Shown: positions 20,958-33,528, numbered from the stretch's first letter. The stretch is 64,000 nucleotides of DNA from Phycisphaerae bacterium (GCA_016782885.1 JADHXQ010000001.1:40732-104731); one strand, 5' to 3'. The notes: generated by a model not told the origin, from the sequence alone. Numbers and translations are program-made.

Positions 20958-23390
20958 TTATTCATACTTCAGCACCCATTTGACGTCCACATTAGCGGCC
21001 GCGGAGAGTATCAAGCAACTGAGGCCTTCAACCGGGTGAGGTTTTAGCTGCGCCTTACCGCCTTTTGCTTCCGCCGAGATCGCCTTGGCTGCATTGTTGG
21101 CGACAACGATCTTAAAAGGTTCGCCTCCGATGACGTGAGCGGCGCCGCTCAACGTTTTGGCTTGGGCGTCCCAGCGGACATCTGACAAATCGACCCAACC
21201 CTGAAGGACATGCCTGTCGGTGCTGATTACCTGGGGATGAGCTTGAACCTTACGCAACGAGATCATGGCGCAGCAGTTGGGATTCAATTCCCGCTCGATG
21301 CGCGCCGTTCCGGGTAGTTTACCCAGGTATTTGTCAGTCCAAAATTCATAAGCGTGATAGTGGGCGGACGCATCCAGGCCGATGGCGTTGCCCACGCGAT
21401 CGCCACTGATGTTTGTGGATACAACGGCTTTTTCTTTTCCCGTGTTGTACAGGGCGATCTGGCGCCAGTCGGGCGTCAGTTCCAGGTCATAGACCTGCGG
21501 GTCGAGTACGCCTGTGAAAGCATCGAGCGGGCGAGCCGTCCTGGGCTGGGGATAGTGCGGGTAAGTGCGAGAAACATCGTGGGTGATTTCCGGCGTGAAC
21601 AGCGAGAAAGAAGTCGACAGATCGAGTCGGCCGCTGGTAAGAAAGACCATCGTGAGCAGGGACTTCCGGATTTCCGGTGAAACATTGTGAACGGCCTTTG
21701 TGTCCGGGTAGTAGTTGAACACTGTTCGATTCTTGTACCATCGAAGCCCGCTGATGGAGATCATCCCCGGGGCGTATTTGTTGGAATCGCGCCAAGTTCG
21801 CTGGGTGTCTACAAGTCCGGCGGTTACATCCAGGCAGGGGCGCGAGGATTCGCCCATGTTTCGCTCATCGATGAGACCGTCTTTTCCCATCGCCTCGCGC
21901 AGCAGTTTGAAAGCCCGGCGGTATGCGCCGTTGGTGGTGGAGTAACGGTCATCAAAACCTCCCTCGCATCGCCACGCCGTGGCGGGGTAATCGGCCTTCA
22001 CCCCGCGAATACCGTCTTGGCGCAGCTTGCTCCAGACCTTTACAAAGTGTTTTGAGAACTCCTTGTCGGTGTAGTCGTACGTCACGTATGGCTGGTGGTG
22101 CGGATGCTTGTGCCTCCACTTCTTGTTGGGGGTCCGCTTGTCAACTTCGGAGCCATCATTGAAGAGCATGTACTGCGGATATTTCCGGACGAAATCATCA
22201 GACGGCATGCCAAGCTGCATGTAGATGTAGGGAACTCCGCTTGCGGCGTTCATCGCCCGGCTCCACTTGGCGATGGAGTCGTAGGGCGCCACCAGGTGCT
22301 TGAACTTGCGCATGTGGGCGTCGTCCCACCAGCCTTGTTCCGTGTCGAGGTGGTATTTGTCCGGTTCCAGGCGGAGCGATACTTTCGTGTATTTTGTCAA
22401 TCCGCACTTGTTGGCATGCTTGAGTTCTCCAATCAGTTTTGTCGAATTGTTGACCCCGGGCAATTTGCTGAGCACGCCGGTGCTCCATCCGCAGAGCACG
22501 GGAAAATCGTAGACGTTGGGGCGCGCCTTGTTTGCAGTCCGCACCGCCAGGCCATAGCGTTCCAATGCTTCGAACGGCTCGCGGGTATGAACATCCAGAT
22601 AAAAGGTGTCGGCGGCGATATAGGTCTGGTCCTCATCGACCAGCTTTCCGACAGGGTCATCGGCGTAAAAAGTCGGCGATCCATCCCGCAGGACCGCGAA
22701 CTTGCCAAACTCGTCATTGGCCAATCCGCCCCAAACCGCCGTGCGGCGTTTACCGTCAACCACTCCTGTCAGCATCAGGCTGTTTGCGCTGCGACGCGTT
22801 AAACCGGCGGCGACGAGTGTCTTTTCCGCACCGGCCGAACCGTTCAGCGTCATCGGTTGTTTCATCTCCTTACCGCCAAAGAACACCCCGCCGCCAAGCG
22901 GCGTGCTTTCCCGCAGTCTAAAGCTGAGATAATTCGGCATCTTAACGCCAAAACCGCATACCAGGGCGGGATGATTCGCATAGAGGCAATAGGAATACAG
23001 TAAATGGGCATACTGGCGATTGGGCCGGCCTCGGTAGCCCAACTCGTTGAAGTCCGCAACTTCCAGTGTGACGCGTTTTCCAACTCCAAGCCCATCGCGT
23101 ACATCATCGGCATACATCTTCACGACAGCGCCGCGTTTTCCTCGCGCCAAACCAAAACGCGCATCCGACAGCAAGGCCTCGTTGCTCGATGCATCGTGGA
23201 TGGAGAATCCACCTTGTTTATCAAACACGACGGAGATGATCCCGTTGCTTAATCGCCCATCCGCGTACGTCAAGGATTTCTTGGCGCCGTCAGCCCGAAG
23301 CCGCCCGCATGTCACGGACAACAACAAGACGACTACCGCCAGGCCAAAACGTCTGAAGAGACTGTTGGTTTTCTGTTTGCAGTACAGCAT
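20958..23390 (-). CDS. Exported alpha-galactosidase-like (clan GH-D) glycoside hydrolase
   Basis: Signal peptide; GIRGVKADYPATAWR (nucleophile-like KxDY); N-terminal beta-sandwich then TIM barrel; family uncertain. Confidence 0.6.
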   Translation of the reverse strand: MLYCKQKTNSLFRRFGLAVVVLLLSVTCGRLRADGAKKSLTYADGRLSNGIISVVFDKQGGFSIHDASSNEALLSDARFGLARGKRGAVVKMYADDVRDGLGVGKRVTLEVADFNELGYRGRPNRQYAHLLYSYCLYANHPALVCGFGVKMPNYLSFRLRESTPLGGGVFFGGKEMKQPMTLNGSAGAEKTLVAAGLTRRSANSLMLTGVVDGKRRTAVWGGLANDEFGKFAVLRDGSPTFYADDPVGKLVDEDQTYIAADTFYLDVHTREPFEALERYGLAVRTANKARPNVYDFPVLCGWSTGVLSKLPGVNNSTKLIGELKHANKCGLTKYTKVSLRLEPDKYHLDTEQGWWDDAHMRKFKHLVAPYDSIAKWSRAMNAASGVPYIYMQLGMPSDDFVRKYPQYMLFNDGSEVDKRTPNKKWRHKHPHHQPYVTYDYTDKEFSKHFVKVWSKLRQDGIRGVKADYPATAWRCEGGFDDRYSTTNGAYRRAFKLLREAMGKDGLIDERNMGESSRPCLDVTAGLVDTQRTWRDSNKYAPGMISISGLRWYKNRTVFNYYPDTKAVHNVSPEIRKSLLTMVFLTSGRLDLSTSFSLFTPEITHDVSRTYPHYPQPRTARPLDAFTGVLDPQVYDLELTPDWRQIALYNTGKEKAVVSTNISGDRVGNAIGLDASAHYHAYEFWTDKYLGKLPGTARIERELNPNCCAMISLRKVQAHPQVISTDRHVLQGWVDLSDVRWDAQAKTLSGAAHVIGGEPFKIVVANNAAKAISAEAKGGKAQLKPHPVEGLSCLILSAAANVDVKWVLKYE

Positions 23391-23554
23391 TTTGAATTCC
23401 TGGGACGTCTGGATTATTGGTTTTCTCTTCTTCCATGGGCCTCTTGGGCCTGCCTGCCGAAGGCACGGCCGCGCTGCAATTCGGGGAAGATCCATGTCCA
23501 CCAGGCTTTGTCGTTAACTGGAACCCGGAGCCCTGCGTCTGAAACCCGCCGTTA

Positions 23555-25119: not shown

Positions 25120-25680
25120 GTGTATAGAACAAGAAATCTCATCAGATCTTCGACAATATTGGTTGGAATCGTATTGTCTATCGCTTCCGGAGCAGGCGGA
25201 CGTAATGCAGCATATGCAACATCTACAGTAACCGCATCGATAAAACCGTTTGTCATCGTCAGCCCGGAAACAGCCGCCGTAAACGTCGCGGTTTCAGACG
25301 TGGGCCTCATCAGCGCGACCGTGACATTTCACGTTATCGCAAACACCGCGACCGTTAGCATGGCTGCGACCGCCACTGCACTTTACCGGACCGACGATCC
25401 AAACGCCCAGCAAGCCACGCCAATTCCCCTCCATCTCGCAAGCGGAGCATCAATCACCCCCGACAACACCGGAACGATCGCGCGAGCCGGTTACGTTAAC
25501 GACACAATGCTCGACGGCATGCCCGCAAAGAGCACGAGCGTTATCTCATTCCAAAGCAATCAGGAAAACCGATTCCGTGAGGATGTAGGGGTAACGGTCA
25601 CATGGAACCAATCCGATCCGACCAGACCAAGGGGACTGTATCACGGTAAAGTGAAATTGACGGCCCTGGTCATGCCATGA
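25120..25680 (+). CDS. Putative fibre/pilus subunit (paralogue of 31133-31720)
   Basis: Signal peptide; C-terminus RFREDVGVTVTWNQSDPTRPRGLYHGKVKLTALVMP parallels HFSQNVRLTVTWNQDDPEKPTGEYSGKVKLTALLLP. Confidence 0.6.
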   Translation: MYRTRNLIRSSTILVGIVLSIASGAGGRNAAYATSTVTASIKPFVIVSPETAAVNVAVSDVGLISATVTFHVIANTATVSMAATATALYRTDDPNAQQATPIPLHLASGASITPDNTGTIARAGYVNDTMLDGMPAKSTSVISFQSNQENRFREDVGVTVTWNQSDPTRPRGLYHGKVKLTALVMP

Positions 25681-25779
25681 TACCGCAGCCGATCTGAAAT
25701 ATCTGTACAATTGAGTATGGGGGATTGCAGGCGTATAATAGATTGTAGTGAATGAGTTGCCGCTACCGAGAGCACCACC

Positions 25780-26784
25780 ATGTACGCCACCGGAAAAACA
25801 TCTTTGCTTCTCACCGCCATATGCTGCTTTGCGGGCTGCACCAAGACCATTGAGATCCGCCACTACCCCGCCTTCTACACGCCCGATCTGCAATCGGTAG
25901 CTGTCCTGCCGTTTGACAATGACACCCTGGACGTTCGCGCCGGACAATACCTGGCCGAGCGACTCGCCAGGTCCATGAGGATAAATGGCACGTATAAGAT
26001 AGCGGGACCGCGCGAACTCGCCGCCCGTCTCGGCGCCGAAGAGTTGAAGAAATTCCCCCCCGCCGACAGACAGGCAGCGGCCAAGCTGCTCGGAAAACTC
26101 GACGACACGCAGGCCTTCATCACTGGTACGGTCACAACCTTCACGTCAACCGGGTACACCTACAGATGGCGAAACAGAGGTTACGGATATTCATGGTACG
26201 TCTACGATCCCTATCTGTACTACCCGATCAATTACTGCTCGCACAACGAAGGCCGCGTAAGGGCTCACGTAAGCCTCGTTCTTATCGCCGATGGCTCGAT
26301 CGTATCTGAGACGGCGATACATGTAGGCAAGACAGTGTTCTCCGACGGTGACCCGCCGCATATGACGCCCGACGAATGCCTGATCGAAGCGGCCAGGCGC
26401 GTCGTTAACAGACTTGTCGATCGGTTCACCATTGTCCGCAAGCGAGTAAAAGTGCCGCTTGACAAAGCATTGCAGACAGCCGATGGCAGGGACGGGGACA
26501 AATGGCGGATCACAGATCGCTTCGACGCAAACAGCGAGGGCATACATGCCGTGGTATCCCTGCCGCCCGAATGCAATGGAAACCAATTTCGTCTGGAAGT
26601 AACCGAGCCCGGGGGGACCGAAGTCCTGGTCGACAGGGAATTCGTCTGGTCTAACCGCCAAAGCGAATACGAATTTGTCTTCACCCCGCGGAAACTGAGC
26701 CCCTCACCGGCCGGACGGACGTTCGTAATCACGCTCTATTTGGATTCCGAGCAAATCAGATCGCGAAAAATAACTATCAAATAG
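25780..26784 (+). CDS. Lipoprotein, GNA1162/CsgG-like (TolB-N-like fold)
   Basis: CCFAGC lipobox; SVAVLPFDNDTLDVRAGQYLAERLARSM; ITGTVTTF. Confidence 0.65.
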   Translation: MYATGKTSLLLTAICCFAGCTKTIEIRHYPAFYTPDLQSVAVLPFDNDTLDVRAGQYLAERLARSMRINGTYKIAGPRELAARLGAEELKKFPPADRQAAAKLLGKLDDTQAFITGTVTTFTSTGYTYRWRNRGYGYSWYVYDPYLYYPINYCSHNEGRVRAHVSLVLIADGSIVSETAIHVGKTVFSDGDPPHMTPDECLIEAARRVVNRLVDRFTIVRKRVKVPLDKALQTADGRDGDKWRITDRFDANSEGIHAVVSLPPECNGNQFRLEVTEPGGTEVLVDREFVWSNRQSEYEFVFTPRKLSPSPAGRTFVITLYLDSEQIRSRKITIK

Positions 26785-29700
26785 CACCTCGAGCAGCGTC
26801 TTGTCTGTTTTCCACGCTCTCTCCATCGTCTCGATCTCCCCCGTGGGGAAGCTCTTGGCGATGAACGGTGGGAGAGTCACTTCGCTGAATTCCTTTTTGG
26901 GCGTGACGGTCACATCCCGTTGTGTTTCGATCAGCCCGTATTGGCTGGGAAGAGTTTTCGTATCCACTTTCAGCACGAATCCGCCCGGCTTCACTCCGCC
27001 AAGATAGTAGCTTCCGTCACCGGCTGTGACCGAGTCGACAACGATCTCGCCGGTCTTCGAATCGACCAGAAAGACCCTGACTCCCACGATGGGTTTTGGT
27101 GCTGCGCCGTTAACATAAAGGACCTTTCCCGTAATCGCGATGAACGGCGTCAGCGCAAAGTCAACCCTCGTCAACCGGTTCGGCATGACGCACACCATCT
27201 GCGTCCCATGCACAACGGAGTAGTCGGCGGGCACAGTATCCATTTCCAGCGATACACGTACGGTCCTGTCCCGTCCGACCGTGGACAGCAGGAATCGCCC
27301 CCGCTCGTCGGTAATGTCCTCTGCCACCGTGCTCATCCGGACCTTGATTTCCTTGACGCCTGGTTCGCCTTTGTCCCTTGTGGCGTTTGCGTTATAGTCG
27401 ACAAAGACCGTACCGTGGATCGCGCCGCGGTCCGGATTGACCCGCCAGTTTGTGACGCGGCGCGGGCGCATACCGTCAAATGCGAAGAGATTGCTGAGAT
27501 TGACGTAGGCAATGGCCGTCCACTCCTCCCGCTGGTAGCGAGTTTGCAGACCAATGCGATTCCGCCCTGTACGATCCGTCAGCAACTCGCAGCGGTTTTC
27601 GAAGAACGCATCTCCCCGGTTGCTTCTGTGATCGATATCCCAACCGACTTCCGTACGCAACTGCACGCTGCGCTTGCCCGTAGTACGATACGAATGGAAC
27701 ACAGAGTGCCTGGTTTCAGTCTCGTCGCCCCGGTAGGAAACGCCAACGGACTGCCGGTCGGAAATTGTCTTGCGGGCCGTAAGCGCCACCGTCGGCTGGC
27801 GACCCGTGGTTATTCCAGGCAATTGCAGCCCCGACAGGAAATCCGAATAGTCGCCCATTGACAGAGCATCACCGCTGGAAGCATCGGCCATCAGGGTCAG
27901 GTTCCTGAACGGAGTGGCCCTGACTCTGACCCGGTAAATGGTCAGCGGATTCTCCGCCCAGCTTTGGTCCAGGCGGTTGGCCTCCAGTGACACGGAAGTC
28001 CGGGGAATCGCCGAGGTGCTTACCGCCAGCCCCTGGTAATTCGTACGAAGCGTCTCGCTCTGGCTGCCGTCAAGGTTGTTCCATATCGTCCCTGCCGAAA
28101 AACGCGCTCTCCACTTCCTCGATATACGCCAACCGCTTGTGATTGTCGCGCCCCGGCGATCCCGCAGATCGGGATTCACGCCATCGAAAAAATCCGTACC
28201 GAAGCTGAAAATCTGCGAACGGATTGTGACGTTGCGGATAGGGCAAATGTCTGCTTTGAACTTAAGGGCCAGATCATTGTACTGGTCTTCGGGCCCCTGC
28301 CCGTCTTCGTCCCTGCCTGCGCTGGCGGCCATGTCGCCGGACAGCAACACCTTGTCCATCGCCAGCCAAGACACTTGTGCCCCCCCATTGATTCCGGACT
28401 TCGGATAACTGCGTCCATCGCGAACATATCTCCTTTCAAGGTACTCACCCCAGAAGTCCTTGTGGACCGCCAGCGAACCGCCAAGCGTCACATTGGGCGT
28501 CAGACCGTGCAGCACGCGTCCTACCGCCATACCGCCGTCGGCCTCAAACCTGGTCGAGCGCCTCCTGGTTCCCGCCGCACCCAGGAACGCCGTTTCGCCC
28601 TGCGTCAGGAGCACCGCGCTGCCCATGATCTCCTTTTCCAGCGTACTGGTCAAACCGTCGGGGTCAGTTATCACAATTCGAATCTCATTCAGGACACCGG
28701 GAGTCAGGTTAATATCTTCAAACACATAGCTGCCGAACCCGGGCTTGGTCGGACTGTCCGGAAGAACCTCCAGAGTATCGATGCGCCGGTCGTTGATAAA
28801 CAACTCCACTGTGGAACCAGCGCGGGCCTGCCCCTCGAAAACGTGGGGTTGGAGAAAGTAAGGACGAAGCCCGTAACCGCGTTTGCGAGATCGGGCAGGA
28901 TCGCTGCGACCGGTAAATCCGTTGACGCGGACCCCGGTCATCCTGATGCTGGGCATGTTGATATCATTCAGTCCGAAAACGGAATCTCCGACCGCCAACT
29001 CAGCGTTGGCGAACCGCCGGGACCATTGGAGCCAGTCCATCTTGACTGCATCCTGTCCGTCACGAAAGAGACCGCCATACTTATCCATCACATATGACGG
29101 TTCGGATAGCCTGACCTTGTATCCTCCCTGGGCGAGGCTGCCCCAAATTGTCTGAGTCACACCGCCGAGAGTTCCGCTGTGAGTGGCGGATCTATCCTTC
29201 TTGGATTGCAACCGGTAGGTTCCCCTGGCGTCGAGCCTCATGAAGTGAACGCCATCTTTTTTGGGTATGGCCTCTCCGTGAACTTCGGGCAGTTTCGGGC
29301 CCGTATCTTCGGTGGGAACACCCAACAGCGATGCCCTCTTGCGAATCTTCCATATCGCCAGTGTTCTGCCCGTCTTACCGCTGACCTCATAGTTGGCTTC
29401 ATCCCACGCCAATGGGATATCCAAGATGCCCGACACCGACGCGGGCAAGATAAAGACGTCCTGCCTCTGCGTCATCTCAGAAACCGTTACGATCATCTTC
29501 AAGGGCGCAGACTTGCCACCGCGTTCCATCATCCCCCGCTCGGTATCGATAACCGTGTGACCTCCAGGGCCAAACGTAAACGATACCTGCCCCTCTTTTC
29601 TCATAACCTTGACGCCCAGCCGTTCGAGTATCCTCACCAACGGTATGAACCGCCGCTTGGAAGGCGTCAGGATCGAGTCCATGTCCAGGATCACCACCTC

Positions 29701-30075
29701 CTGCCCCCGACGAGGACCGCGCAATGTGAATCCAACAACTTCGCGTTCAAACCCCGCCTGAGCGGGCCGGCTCGTGGGACCGGACGCTGCACCTTTCGCA
29801 GGCGACGGACGTGTAGTTGGACCTCGACCGACAGGACGTGTGGTTGGACCTCGATCGGCAGGACGTGTGGTTGGACCTCGACCGGCAGGACGTGTAGTTG
29901 CAGCCATCCCGTGGACCTGAATCGACACGAGCCATCCTGCTGCAACCAGAGCCAACAAGGCCGGCGAAAAACGGCGCCGGCCCGACCGACTACTGTACCT
30001 GCCCTTTCTTTGCGGACGCCGGGGCGCGATCAGTTGCAAGAGGCTCGTCTGATGTATTGCCCTTGCCCTTGTCAT
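26704..30075 (-). CDS. Usher-like outer-membrane beta-barrel protein with C-terminal Sdr/CarboxypepD_reg-like domains
   Basis: FEGQARAGSTVELFINDRRIDTLEV...GSYVFEDINLTPGVLNEIRIVITDPDGLTS (usher-like plug/middle domain), long barrel-like region, GTVFVDYNANATRDKGEPGV and GKVLYVNGAAPKPIVGVRVFLVD C-terminal domains. Confidence 0.6.
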   Translation of the reverse strand: MTRARAIHQTSLLQLIAPRRPQRKGRYSSRSGRRRFSPALLALVAAGWLVSIQVHGMAATTRPAGRGPTTRPADRGPTTRPVGRGPTTRPSPAKGAASGPTSRPAQAGFEREVVGFTLRGPRRGQEVVILDMDSILTPSKRRFIPLVRILERLGVKVMRKEGQVSFTFGPGGHTVIDTERGMMERGGKSAPLKMIVTVSEMTQRQDVFILPASVSGILDIPLAWDEANYEVSGKTGRTLAIWKIRKRASLLGVPTEDTGPKLPEVHGEAIPKKDGVHFMRLDARGTYRLQSKKDRSATHSGTLGGVTQTIWGSLAQGGYKVRLSEPSYVMDKYGGLFRDGQDAVKMDWLQWSRRFANAELAVGDSVFGLNDINMPSIRMTGVRVNGFTGRSDPARSRKRGYGLRPYFLQPHVFEGQARAGSTVELFINDRRIDTLEVLPDSPTKPGFGSYVFEDINLTPGVLNEIRIVITDPDGLTSTLEKEIMGSAVLLTQGETAFLGAAGTRRRSTRFEADGGMAVGRVLHGLTPNVTLGGSLAVHKDFWGEYLERRYVRDGRSYPKSGINGGAQVSWLAMDKVLLSGDMAASAGRDEDGQGPEDQYNDLALKFKADICPIRNVTIRSQIFSFGTDFFDGVNPDLRDRRGATITSGWRISRKWRARFSAGTIWNNLDGSQSETLRTNYQGLAVSTSAIPRTSVSLEANRLDQSWAENPLTIYRVRVRATPFRNLTLMADASSGDALSMGDYSDFLSGLQLPGITTGRQPTVALTARKTISDRQSVGVSYRGDETETRHSVFHSYRTTGKRSVQLRTEVGWDIDHRSNRGDAFFENRCELLTDRTGRNRIGLQTRYQREEWTAIAYVNLSNLFAFDGMRPRRVTNWRVNPDRGAIHGTVFVDYNANATRDKGEPGVKEIKVRMSTVAEDITDERGRFLLSTVGRDRTVRVSLEMDTVPADYSVVHGTQMVCVMPNRLTRVDFALTPFIAITGKVLYVNGAAPKPIVGVRVFLVDSKTGEIVVDSVTAGDGSYYLGGVKPGGFVLKVDTKTLPSQYGLIETQRDVTVTPKKEFSEVTLPPFIAKSFPTGEIETMERAWKTDKTLLEVLFDSYFSRSDLLGIQIERDYERPSGR
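29807..29900. repeat. 27-bp tandem repeat (about 3.5 units) in the usher-like gene
   Basis: ggacgtgtrgttggacctcgaycgrca units at 29807, 29834, 29861, 29888; encodes (TTRPxxRGP)n. Confidence 0.9.
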
Positions 30076-30979
30076 CAGGCTGATCCTCAGGTGGTTTCAT
30101 TTTGCCCTTCTCAGGGCTCGTAATGGTCGGTTTGGTTTTCGCTGTCGGCTCGGTTTCAGGGGGCGCCGCGGGTTTGTAGGCCAACGTGAATTCCTCTGAA
30201 AGCCCTGCCTTGAGTTGAGGCGAGGTATAATTGATCTTCACTCTGTAATTGCCTTCAGGCAGCTTTGCCTTCACGTCAGTCTTGAAATTTCGCGCCGACT
30301 CCCGGAGAACGTAGCTGTATCCCAAGTCGCCTTTTTCGAGGGACTCTCCCTTTTCGGACAGTATCTCGTACTTCCCCCGCACCAGAAATCTGCCATTGCC
30401 CTTGTTGACAATGCTGCAGGTAAGCTGCGGCCCGTTCTTACCGCTCTTGAGCGTGGCTCCGTCCAATGAGCCCTGCACATTGACCTTACCTGACTTCCCG
30501 AAAATGGGCACGAGTATCGATGAGACCACTTCAATCTTCAGGTCGCGCCCACCGCCATCTTTAGTTTTGGACACGGTTGTCTTGAGTGATTCAAGTTCCA
30601 GACCCGCCCAGTACTCCCCATCCTTCCGCTTGCCTCTGGAAAGGATTACAAAGCGGATAGTCCGGCGGGTCTTCGGGGCGAGGGTCAGCTCCCTGGGGTT
30701 GAACTTGATCTGCGTAGCCAGCGATTTGTCATCCGGCTTGACCTCCCGCAGACCGCCGTCGCGAAGGAGTTCAAAGTGAATCACCCGAACGCGAAAACGT
30801 TCCTGGGCGTCTCCGGGGTTGGATATCACCAGAGACCCCGCCGGACGTCCCTTATCAAGCTCAATATCGATAAAAGCCGGCCTGATCGACACCGCACCCC
30901 GGAGCGAACCGGTCAGAAGAACAATGATCAGACCCACCACACACGCGATCACCTTTACACCACGGAAGTTTTTCTTCAT
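29990..30979 (-). CDS. PapD-like periplasmic chaperone-type protein
   Basis: Signal peptide; SIRPAFIDIELDKGRPAGSLVISNPGDAQERFRVRV...IKFNPRELTLAPKTRRTIRFVI (two-Ig chaperone pattern). Confidence 0.65.
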   Translation of the reverse strand: MKKNFRGVKVIACVVGLIIVLLTGSLRGAVSIRPAFIDIELDKGRPAGSLVISNPGDAQERFRVRVIHFELLRDGGLREVKPDDKSLATQIKFNPRELTLAPKTRRTIRFVILSRGKRKDGEYWAGLELESLKTTVSKTKDGGGRDLKIEVVSSILVPIFGKSGKVNVQGSLDGATLKSGKNGPQLTCSIVNKGNGRFLVRGKYEILSEKGESLEKGDLGYSYVLRESARNFKTDVKAKLPEGNYRVKINYTSPQLKAGLSEEFTLAYKPAAPPETEPTAKTKPTITSPEKGKMKPPEDQPDDKGKGNTSDEPLATDRAPASAKKGQVQ

Positions 30980-31132
30980 AACAGGTATCCTTGGTAACAC
31001 GCACAGCGAACATATCGGATCTGTCGCCGCAAGTACGACAACAGGCAAAACTCGGCAGAAACAATAAACGGGCAATTGGCACGAACGTACGGTAATTCAG
31101 TCAGAGACGGTTGGCCGACTGACACAACAGTA

Positions 31133-31720
31133 TTAAGGTATCGACGGCGACGCCGGGAGCAGAAGAGCCGTCAACTTGACTTTTCCGCTGTACTCTCCGG
31201 TGGGCTTTTCAGGGTCATCCTGATTCCAGGTGACCGTGAGACGAACGTTCTGACTGAAGTGGTTGTTCTGGCTGCTCTCGAACGTAATCTGTTCGGTGGG
31301 CACGCCAGGAAAACCATCGATATCTTCGGTGGCGCCGCCGATGAGGAAGGCCGCAACCTGGCTGCCGCCCCCGAGAGGGTTGGCATTGTCCGGGTCAATC
31401 TCAATGCCCGCGGTCACATTCAGGGGTATCGGCTGAACTTCCGTACCCAGGGGATCGTCACCCTTGAACAACGGGCTGGCCGCCGCATAAAGCGTAACGA
31501 CCTGGAGGTTCGCGTCTACGCGGAAATCGATAGTAGCCGTGAAGTCACCGGTCTGAACCGTCCCGGCATTAACAATCGCGGTACTGGCTTGAACGCCGAC
31601 ATTGGGGTCAACTTTCACAAATACATGGGCGGAGGCAGATCCTTCGGTATCACCACGGACTACCACCACCATCCCGGTGAGCATCACGCCCACCACTAGA
31701 AGTAGAAATAACTTTTTCAT
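31133..31720 (-). CDS. Putative fibre/pilus subunit (CFA/I- or archaic-like)
   Basis: Signal peptide MKKLFLLLVVGVMLTGMVVVVRG; SASAHVFVKVDPNVGVQ...GEYSGKVKLTALLLP; adjacent to chaperone and usher-like genes. Confidence 0.6.
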   Translation of the reverse strand: MKKLFLLLVVGVMLTGMVVVVRGDTEGSASAHVFVKVDPNVGVQASTAIVNAGTVQTGDFTATIDFRVDANLQVVTLYAAASPLFKGDDPLGTEVQPIPLNVTAGIEIDPDNANPLGGGSQVAAFLIGGATEDIDGFPGVPTEQITFESSQNNHFSQNVRLTVTWNQDDPEKPTGEYSGKVKLTALLLPASPSIP

Positions 31721-32320: not shown

Positions 32321-32478
32321 ATCAGCGCGTGGAATTGGGCTCGTTTTAAGTTCCGCCGGCAGGAAAGTGACAGTTTCAGTGGCAGGGAAGCCCCAATGCT
32401 CAGCTCGAACGCTTACGTCCGTTAACGGATACCTCTCTGTTGATAAAAGGAGTTCATGGTAAGAGAAAGGAGATCGTC

Positions 32479-33528
32479 ATGAAAACTTCTAATAACCTTA
32501 CGCTTGCGCTCGTATGCCTGATCGCCCTTGTGCTCGCGGGCACAACCCCACCGGCCATGGCCGCACTTTGGACCATCGAACAAATCACAGATAACGAGGT
32601 CAATGACCGTTATCCACAGCCCAGTGGTTCCGACATAGTCTGGCAGAGACATGACGGCGCCGACTGGGAGATCATCCTTTATCACTCAGGCGCCGAACTA
32701 CCTCCCCTGACGAATAACGCCACCTCCGACGAGTACCCCACCATCTCCGGCGATAACGTTTTTTGGCAGCAATGGGATGGAAACGATAACGAACTCTTCC
32801 ACTACAAAATATCAACCACAGTCATCCAACCGTGGACCAATAACTCGCGACACGACCAGTATCCGCACGTTTCGGGCGACACACTGGTCTGGGAGGGTTT
32901 GGACGGACAATTGGACGGAAACGACTGGGAGATATTCAGCGACGATATCGCCAACGGACCGGGAGAAACGCGGGTCACCAACAATAGCGTTCTCGACAGT
33001 GATGCTCGCGTCAGCGGCGACCGCATCGTATGGGAGGGATGGGACGGCGGCGATCTGGACATATTCCTGTCCGACGGCGGCGTCATTTCGCAACTGACCA
33101 CAAACTCCGTGAACGATTCCAACCCGGACGTCAGCAGCGGAGCGGTAGTCTGGCAGCGAAGCGATGGCGATGCGGAAATCATGCTCTACGATGGAATTCT
33201 CACGTCTCCGATCACGGGTGATGATCGCTTCGACGTTAACGCGGTAGTCTCCGACACGTTGCTTGTCTGGCGACATCAGGACGCCACCACCGCCGCCGAC
33301 TACGAGATCATGATGCTCGCGGTCGGCAACGTCTATCAACTGACGGACAACGACTTCCCGGACGGCCAGGCGGACATCGACGGTGATACAATTGTCTGGG
33401 AGGGATGGGACGGTCACGATTGGGAAATCTTCACAACCACCATCCCGACGGCCATCCTACCCGAACCATGCACAATAACGCTGCTTGCACTGGGATCTTT
33501 GGCGGTACTCAAACGCCGGCCGACATAG
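32479..33528 (+). CDS. PEP-CTERM protein with beta-propeller (TolB-like) repeats
   Basis: Repeated 'YPxxSGDxxVWxxxDGxDWEIF' units; LPEPCTITLLALGSLAVLKRRPT C-terminal sorting signal. Confidence 0.85.
   Translation: MKTSNNLTLALVCLIALVLAGTTPPAMAALWTIEQITDNEVNDRYPQPSGSDIVWQRHDGADWEIILYHSGAELPPLTNNATSDEYPTISGDNVFWQQWDGNDNELFHYKISTTVIQPWTNNSRHDQYPHVSGDTLVWEGLDGQLDGNDWEIFSDDIANGPGETRVTNNSVLDSDARVSGDRIVWEGWDGGDLDIFLSDGGVISQLTTNSVNDSNPDVSSGAVVWQRSDGDAEIMLYDGILTSPITGDDRFDVNAVVSDTLLVWRHQDATTAADYEIMMLAVGNVYQLTDNDFPDGQADIDGDTIVWEGWDGHDWEIFTTTIPTAILPEPCTITLLALGSLAVLKRRPT

Follow-up and report, generated by a model that had tools for sequence, protein, structure and literature searches.

A putative divergent chaperone-usher fiber assembly locus in a Phycisphaerae bacterium

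Archaic and alternative chaperone-usher systems anchor their subunits through a super-conserved arginine in strand F1 of the chaperone (Arg89 in CsuC/EcpB numbering), and the carboxylate of the subunit is held by an arginine/tyrosine pair in the second chaperone domain (Arg174/Tyr196 in CsuC and Arg148/Tyr169 in EcpB). Known systems with a subunit-chaperone-usher gene arrangement polymerize their subunits. Chaperone-usher pili have been described from Proteobacteria, and the archaic forms are distributed among Proteobacteria, Cyanobacteria, and Deinococcus-Thermus (PMC4654587). Planctomycetota are not among the phyla listed there, and our literature search found no report of a chaperone-usher system in this phylum. 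A single proline that kinks chaperone strand D1, Pro59 in CsuC, is invariant across the whole superfamily (PMC4654587).

We analyzed a 64,000-nucleotide stretch of a Phycisphaerae bacterium genome (GCA_016782885.1, JADHXQ010000001.1:40732-104731), referred to here as the window, in which positions are counted from the first letter. An initial annotation proposed that five genes between positions 25120 and 31720 form a complete but divergent fiber assembly system. The locus very probably represents a chaperone-usher fiber assembly system of a divergent branch, with two small proteins, S1 and S2, as its subunits, and the gene set very probably builds cell surface protein fibers by this route. 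This reading rests on the chaperone fold, the homology of the usher plug and first C-terminal domain (CTD1), the two subunits, and conserved synteny. The divergent core of the proposal therefore holds, whereas its completeness is unproven, given an usher barrel modeled at a pLDDT of 38 and an usher N-terminal domain that does not match the known one.

All five reading frames are open. The minus strand carries a subunit-chaperone-usher operon that opens with S1 (31133 to 31720), a secreted fiber subunit of 195 amino acids identified from its reading frame, orthologues, and model. It is followed by the chaperone (29990 to 30979), a periplasmic two-Ig protein of 329 amino acids with a proline-rich C-terminal tail, and by the usher homologue (26704 to 30075; 1,123 amino acids), which was recognized by profile alignment to Escherichia coli ushers and by PF00577 matches in relatives. 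The plus strand carries S2 (25120 to 25680), the second fiber subunit, of 186 amino acids and outside the operon, and a lipoprotein gene (25780 to 26784).

The C-terminal block that the two small secreted proteins had been noted to share is real and lies within a homology that extends over their full length. A search with S1 retrieves S2 (E = 2.4e-32, 39% identity over about 180 amino acids), so the common block is not a matter of chance. S1 is modeled with pLDDT values mostly between 70 and 90, and its C terminus ends in a strand (residues 153 to 163 by DSSP). This strand, YSGKVKLTALL (31163 to 31195, minus strand), belongs to a block conserved in the family alignment and is a putative strand F beside a missing strand G. 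The N terminus of S1 is unpaired and of low confidence in the model, with the first strand starting at residue 18. The mature N-terminal extension, DTEGSASAHVFVKVDPN (31601 to 31651, minus strand), is a putative donor strand with alternating hydrophobic residues, and a segment of this kind (ASAHVFVKVDP) is kept in S1, S2, and their orthologues in the family alignment. To judge from these sequences, an alternating-hydrophobic N terminus combined with a C-terminal strand is as expected for donor-strand exchange, which is itself a prediction here. The proline that closes the N-terminal segment of S1 and S2 recalls Pro13, where the extension of CfaB of the CFA/I system ends (PMC6760452), and serves as a lead only. 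The C-terminal motif of S1, G-Y-S-G-x-V, resembles the G-x-W-S-G-x-V of EcpA, and comparison of the subunits with known pilins gave no significant sequence match. Elsewhere, at a locus in genome G015 (L046:4031-8190), Ig domains like those of the chaperone are part of a long protein, and a nearby gene encodes a secreted protein of 346 amino acids whose N-terminal half looks by eye like the S2 core (LHLAANCNHGRLVMTTT versus FHVIANTATVSMAATAT).

Because the S1 and chaperone genes are in one frame, both could be modeled with AlphaFold as a single chain by reading the DNA from 31651 to 30155 through two stops, which is a modeling device and not biology; chaperone residues are numbered as model number minus 224. 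Outside the linker, pLDDT was mostly 80 to 90. The pTM of 0.72 is higher than would be expected from a free two-domain chaperone, which makes up about half of the chain, and so suggests that the model places the subunit on the chaperone. A search of the PDB with the chaperone model retrieved CsuC (2.8e-10), WxLIP of Enterococcus faecium (4.3e-10), and CfaA (1.0e-8), followed by Caf1M and FimC. Structure prediction and fold search thus agree on the two-Ig protein of PapD fold that the initial annotation had suggested for this gene. In this search, the Gram-positive WxLIP (PDB 9i1y) scored only slightly below CsuC, a hint that the two tandem-Ig families share an origin. No significant direct family call was obtained for the chaperone or the subunits in Pfam, NCBIfam, or PDB sequences, with either single proteins or profiles. 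Since EcpB, an established chaperone of the same type, likewise falls below the PapD_N cutoff, the missing Pfam match of the chaperone is no counterevidence. Compared with E. coli K-12 EcpB/EcpE, 2 of 100 shuffles were as good as the chaperone, versus 23 of 100 for the classical chaperones, a weak result.

Several of the residues that define known chaperones can be followed into this family. P95 is invariant in the seven chaperones that cover the region (7/7) and is located at the D1 break between strands 91 to 94 and 97 to 100, and it corresponds to the superfamily-invariant proline. The model shows G1 as one strand of 18 residues (146 to 163; 30491 to 30544, minus strand), which is the putative donor strand. 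With the register taken from CsuC and EcpB (PMC4654587), the donor residues P0 to P3 would be I155, S153, V151, and I149, and small donor residues in G1 are likewise found in EcpB. At the Arg89 position in F1, all seven chaperones have a tryptophan (Trp124), in a register from the EcpB alignment that could be off by one, and there is no arginine next to Trp124. In domain 2, R197 and Y223 are invariant (8/8); R197 aligns with EcpB Arg148 and Y223 falls next to Tyr169, which makes them candidates for the carboxylate-anchoring pair.

The 1,123-residue protein was initially described as having an usher-like middle region, an N-terminal low-complexity TTRP region, and Sdr- and carboxypeptidase-regulatory-like C-terminal domains unusual for ushers. 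The TTRP region is present, as are the C-terminal Pfam matches to SdrD_B and CarboxypepD_reg. For the middle region, the Usher model PF00577 gives a sub-threshold match in the window protein (E = 0.013, residues 463 to 540) and matches four of the seven family members, with a best E value of 6.2e-6. Alignment to FimD by hhalign gave 45.2, compared to 18.7 ± 2.7 for shuffles (maximum, 26.8) and to 26, 16, and 18 for the unrelated barrels LptD, FhuA, and BamA, respectively. Residues 358 to 531 align with FimD 259 to 410, a segment that runs from the last pre-plug strands through the plug to the first post-plug strands; the pre-plug strands and plug occupy residues 358 to 500 (28576 to 29004, minus strand). 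The plug segment reached 37.5 versus 13.5 ± 2.3 for shuffles, with none as good among 60 to 100 shuffles (K-12 ushers). For the second half of the barrel, the comparison with FimD gave no sequence support. The AlphaFold model contains many beta hairpins at a pLDDT of 38, too poor for a fold search, and the 24-strand barrel is therefore a prediction. The N-terminal domain (residues 105 to 250; 29326 to 29763, minus strand) is not recognizable as PapC_N, with no PapC_N match in Pfam and 3 of 60 shuffles as good in hhalign, and two relatives show a weak Cu_amine_oxidN1-like match in this domain.

The C-terminal domains are not foreign to ushers. The SdrD_B-like domain (residues 870 to 978; 27142 to 27468, minus strand) aligns with FimD CTD1 at 32.7 versus 11.7 ± 2.1 for shuffles (probability, 76%; 0 of 60 shuffles as good) and by this alignment is the usher's own CTD1; a colinear PF00577 match in L041 agrees with this assignment. 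The following CarboxypepD_reg-like domain (residues 976 to 1075; 26851 to 27150, minus strand) stands in place of CTD2 by position only, with no sequence support in hhalign against PapC_C. The C terminus of E. coli K-12 EcpC also matches CarboxypepD_reg (E = 1.2e-4). We therefore reject the idea of an extra Sdr domain added to an usher.

Our survey covered about 400 genomes of the class and 392 of the phylum, plus whole families around the relatives. The system was present in eight Phycisphaerae-type genomes from four families, all of the window's class, and its distribution across families is patchy. Synteny is conserved, as the initial annotation had proposed should be checked: the subunit-chaperone-usher order on one strand is found in five of the eight (the window's genome, G076, G264, G306, and G786). 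In G359, a chaperone-usher pair lies at a contig edge; in G138, a subunit adjoins the chaperone, another subunit gene is present, and the usher is convergent; and in G007, subunit and chaperone share one contig and the usher is on another. S1 orthologues adjoin the chaperone gene in G076, G264, G306, G138, G007, and G786. Exactly two subunit genes, one within the operon and the other elsewhere, occur in five of the eight genomes. The divergence of the seven-member usher alignment was too high for a pattern scan, and a pattern from a three-member alignment matched only three relatives, all Planctomycetota/Phycisphaerae metagenome assemblies. No usher above the PF00577 cutoff was found in the 392 genomes of the phylum. 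The system is so diverged that standard protein family models miss it.

The lipoprotein gene is indeed located between S1 and S2 but falls outside the conserved set. Of 40 relatives, 15 carry it, and most of these lack the fiber system. In G002, a genome of the same genus without any fiber genes, the lipoprotein gene comes immediately after a Gfo/Idh gene (89% identical); S2 does not intervene, and neither the chaperone, the usher, nor S1 lies downstream. We therefore rejected the lipoprotein as a component of the system, and the G002 layout together with the gene's occurrence in relatives indicates that the fiber genes are a patchy set around a resident lipoprotein gene. The otherwise colinear G002 region also lacks a gene for an 847-amino-acid protein (20958 to 23501 in the window, between 20878 and 23555). 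On the other side of the locus, positions 32440 to 33528 encode a secreted protein with SGDxVVWxxxDG-type repeats and a PEP-CTERM-like C terminus, and a distant relative of this protein adjoins the remote S2 gene in G306 (L078, 6287 to 7357).

A search of 397 genomes turned up a related gene set, with a two-Ig chaperone homologue and an usher-like barrel, in two, both of the window's class (G273, L044:3616-10869; G249, L045:3233-7353). The sister chaperones show clear homology to the chaperone family described here (84.8; shuffles, 14.9 ± 2.4) and reach 27.5 against classical K-12 chaperones (shuffles, 13.7 ± 2.5; maximum, 20.3), and the group as a whole is thereby tied to chaperones of PapD type. 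In both genomes, a long outer-membrane-like protein can be aligned with the usher across 444 columns that span barrel and C terminus (48.1 versus 19.2 ± 2.9). This protein bears Ig repeats at its N terminus and CarboxypepD_reg domains at its C terminus, and no plug was detected in its sequence between the GD motif and the following strands. L044 additionally encodes small secreted beta proteins with alternating-hydrophobic N termini, and the N terminus of the long L045 protein appears to be split over two open reading frames. At a further locus (G101, L043:4386-9323), a weakly chaperone-like two-Ig protein adjoins two small secreted beta proteins; its neighbors include a secretin-like protein (467 amino acids), with no usher nearby, and this set may represent a further route by which Ig subunits are exported.

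By homology the system belongs to the chaperone-usher superfamily, but none of the three named pathways accommodates it, because it lacks Arg89, the TcfC/CooC_C domains, the R8/K112 residues, and PapC_N/PapC_C. The archaic (sigma) CsuA/B-CsuC-CsuD system is alike in chaperone fold, with CsuC as the best PDB match, in the Pro59 equivalent, in the candidate domain 2 Arg/Tyr pair, and in small subunits with a C-terminal strand, but differs in the invariant tryptophan in place of Arg89 and in the usher N-terminal domain. Among alternative (alpha) systems, CFA/I (CfaA-B-C-E) provides a top chaperone fold match in CfaA, and ECP (EcpA-E) shares the gene order ecpA-ecpB-ecpC and the CarboxypepD_reg-like usher C terminus. 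In contrast, the TcfC plug and CooC_C domains found in EcpC occur in none of the usher family members here, Arg89 is absent, and no tip-adhesin-like gene was found in the system. Relative to classical FimD/PapC (PF00577), plug and CTD1 align in register with FimD, but PapC_N and PapC_C are undetected, nothing in the window usher exceeds the Pfam cutoff, and the basic R8/K112 positions of classical chaperones are F/Y (position 36) and P (position 158), in a register set by hand. These comparisons bear on a narrower form of our reading, in which a true archaic or alternative system was acquired from Proteobacteria and evolved fast. The CsuC and CfaA fold matches, the ECP gene order, and the patchy spread would suit such an origin, yet we consider it unlikely, in view of the tryptophan at the Arg89 position, the missing TcfC/CooC_C domains, a usher profile nearer to FimD-type ushers, and the lack of any Pfam-detectable usher in the 392 phylum genomes. 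A bolder reading, that Planctomycetota own a deep branch of the superfamily outside the three pathways, with a new usher recruitment domain, tryptophan for arginine, and a plugless sister form bearing N-terminal Ig repeats, is a tentative proposal that falls somewhat short of an even chance.

An usher-related pore could secrete small folded Ig proteins singly, without polymerization, and the presence of just two small subunit types without an adhesin gene, the predicted status of the N-terminal donor strands, and the usher N-terminal domain unlike PapC_N would all agree with this. We regard it as very improbable, however, because the alternating-hydrophobic extension is kept in S1, S2, and orthologues, the usher plug is conserved, and subunits polymerize in known systems of such arrangement. 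A WxL-like surface complex, in which a WxLIP-type scaffold binds small surface proteins beside an unrelated barrel with Sdr-type extensions, was rejected as the main reading and seems hardly credible: although WxL clusters (WxLIP, DUF916-DUF3324) have a tandem-Ig fold similar to that of the chaperone, WxLIP is its second-best distinct fold match, and weak WxLIP Pfam matches occur in the distant two-Ig relatives of L043 and L044, the window proteins have no WxL domain and no WxL or WxLIP Pfam match, the operon holds an usher homologue with plug and CTD1, the chaperone retains the superfamily-invariant proline, and WxL proteins are surface proteins that bind peptidoglycan (PMC10599100).

Under the chaperone-usher reading, the system is probably functional. 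S1 and S2 would be exported to the periplasm, where the chaperone would hold them by donating G1 to a subunit Ig fold without the last strand, and Arg197/Tyr223 of domain 2 may bind the subunit C terminus. The complex would then dock on the outer membrane usher, each incoming subunit would use its N-terminal donor strand to displace the chaperone strand on the previous subunit, and the fiber would grow out through the usher barrel with the plug as its gate. Donor-strand exchange, the barrel, fiber formation, and an adhesive role are predictions from this comparison, and S2 may act as a tip, base, or minor subunit.

A divergent planctomycete branch would extend the known range of chaperone-usher assembly. 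The branch also tests which parts of the machinery are essential, as the plug, CTD1, the D1 proline, and perhaps the domain 2 Arg/Tyr pair are kept, whereas Arg89 and PapC_N are not. If Planctomycetota do own a deep branch, it could show an ancestral form of the chaperone-usher pathway. For the organisms themselves, the system offers a handle on planctomycete attachment and aggregation.
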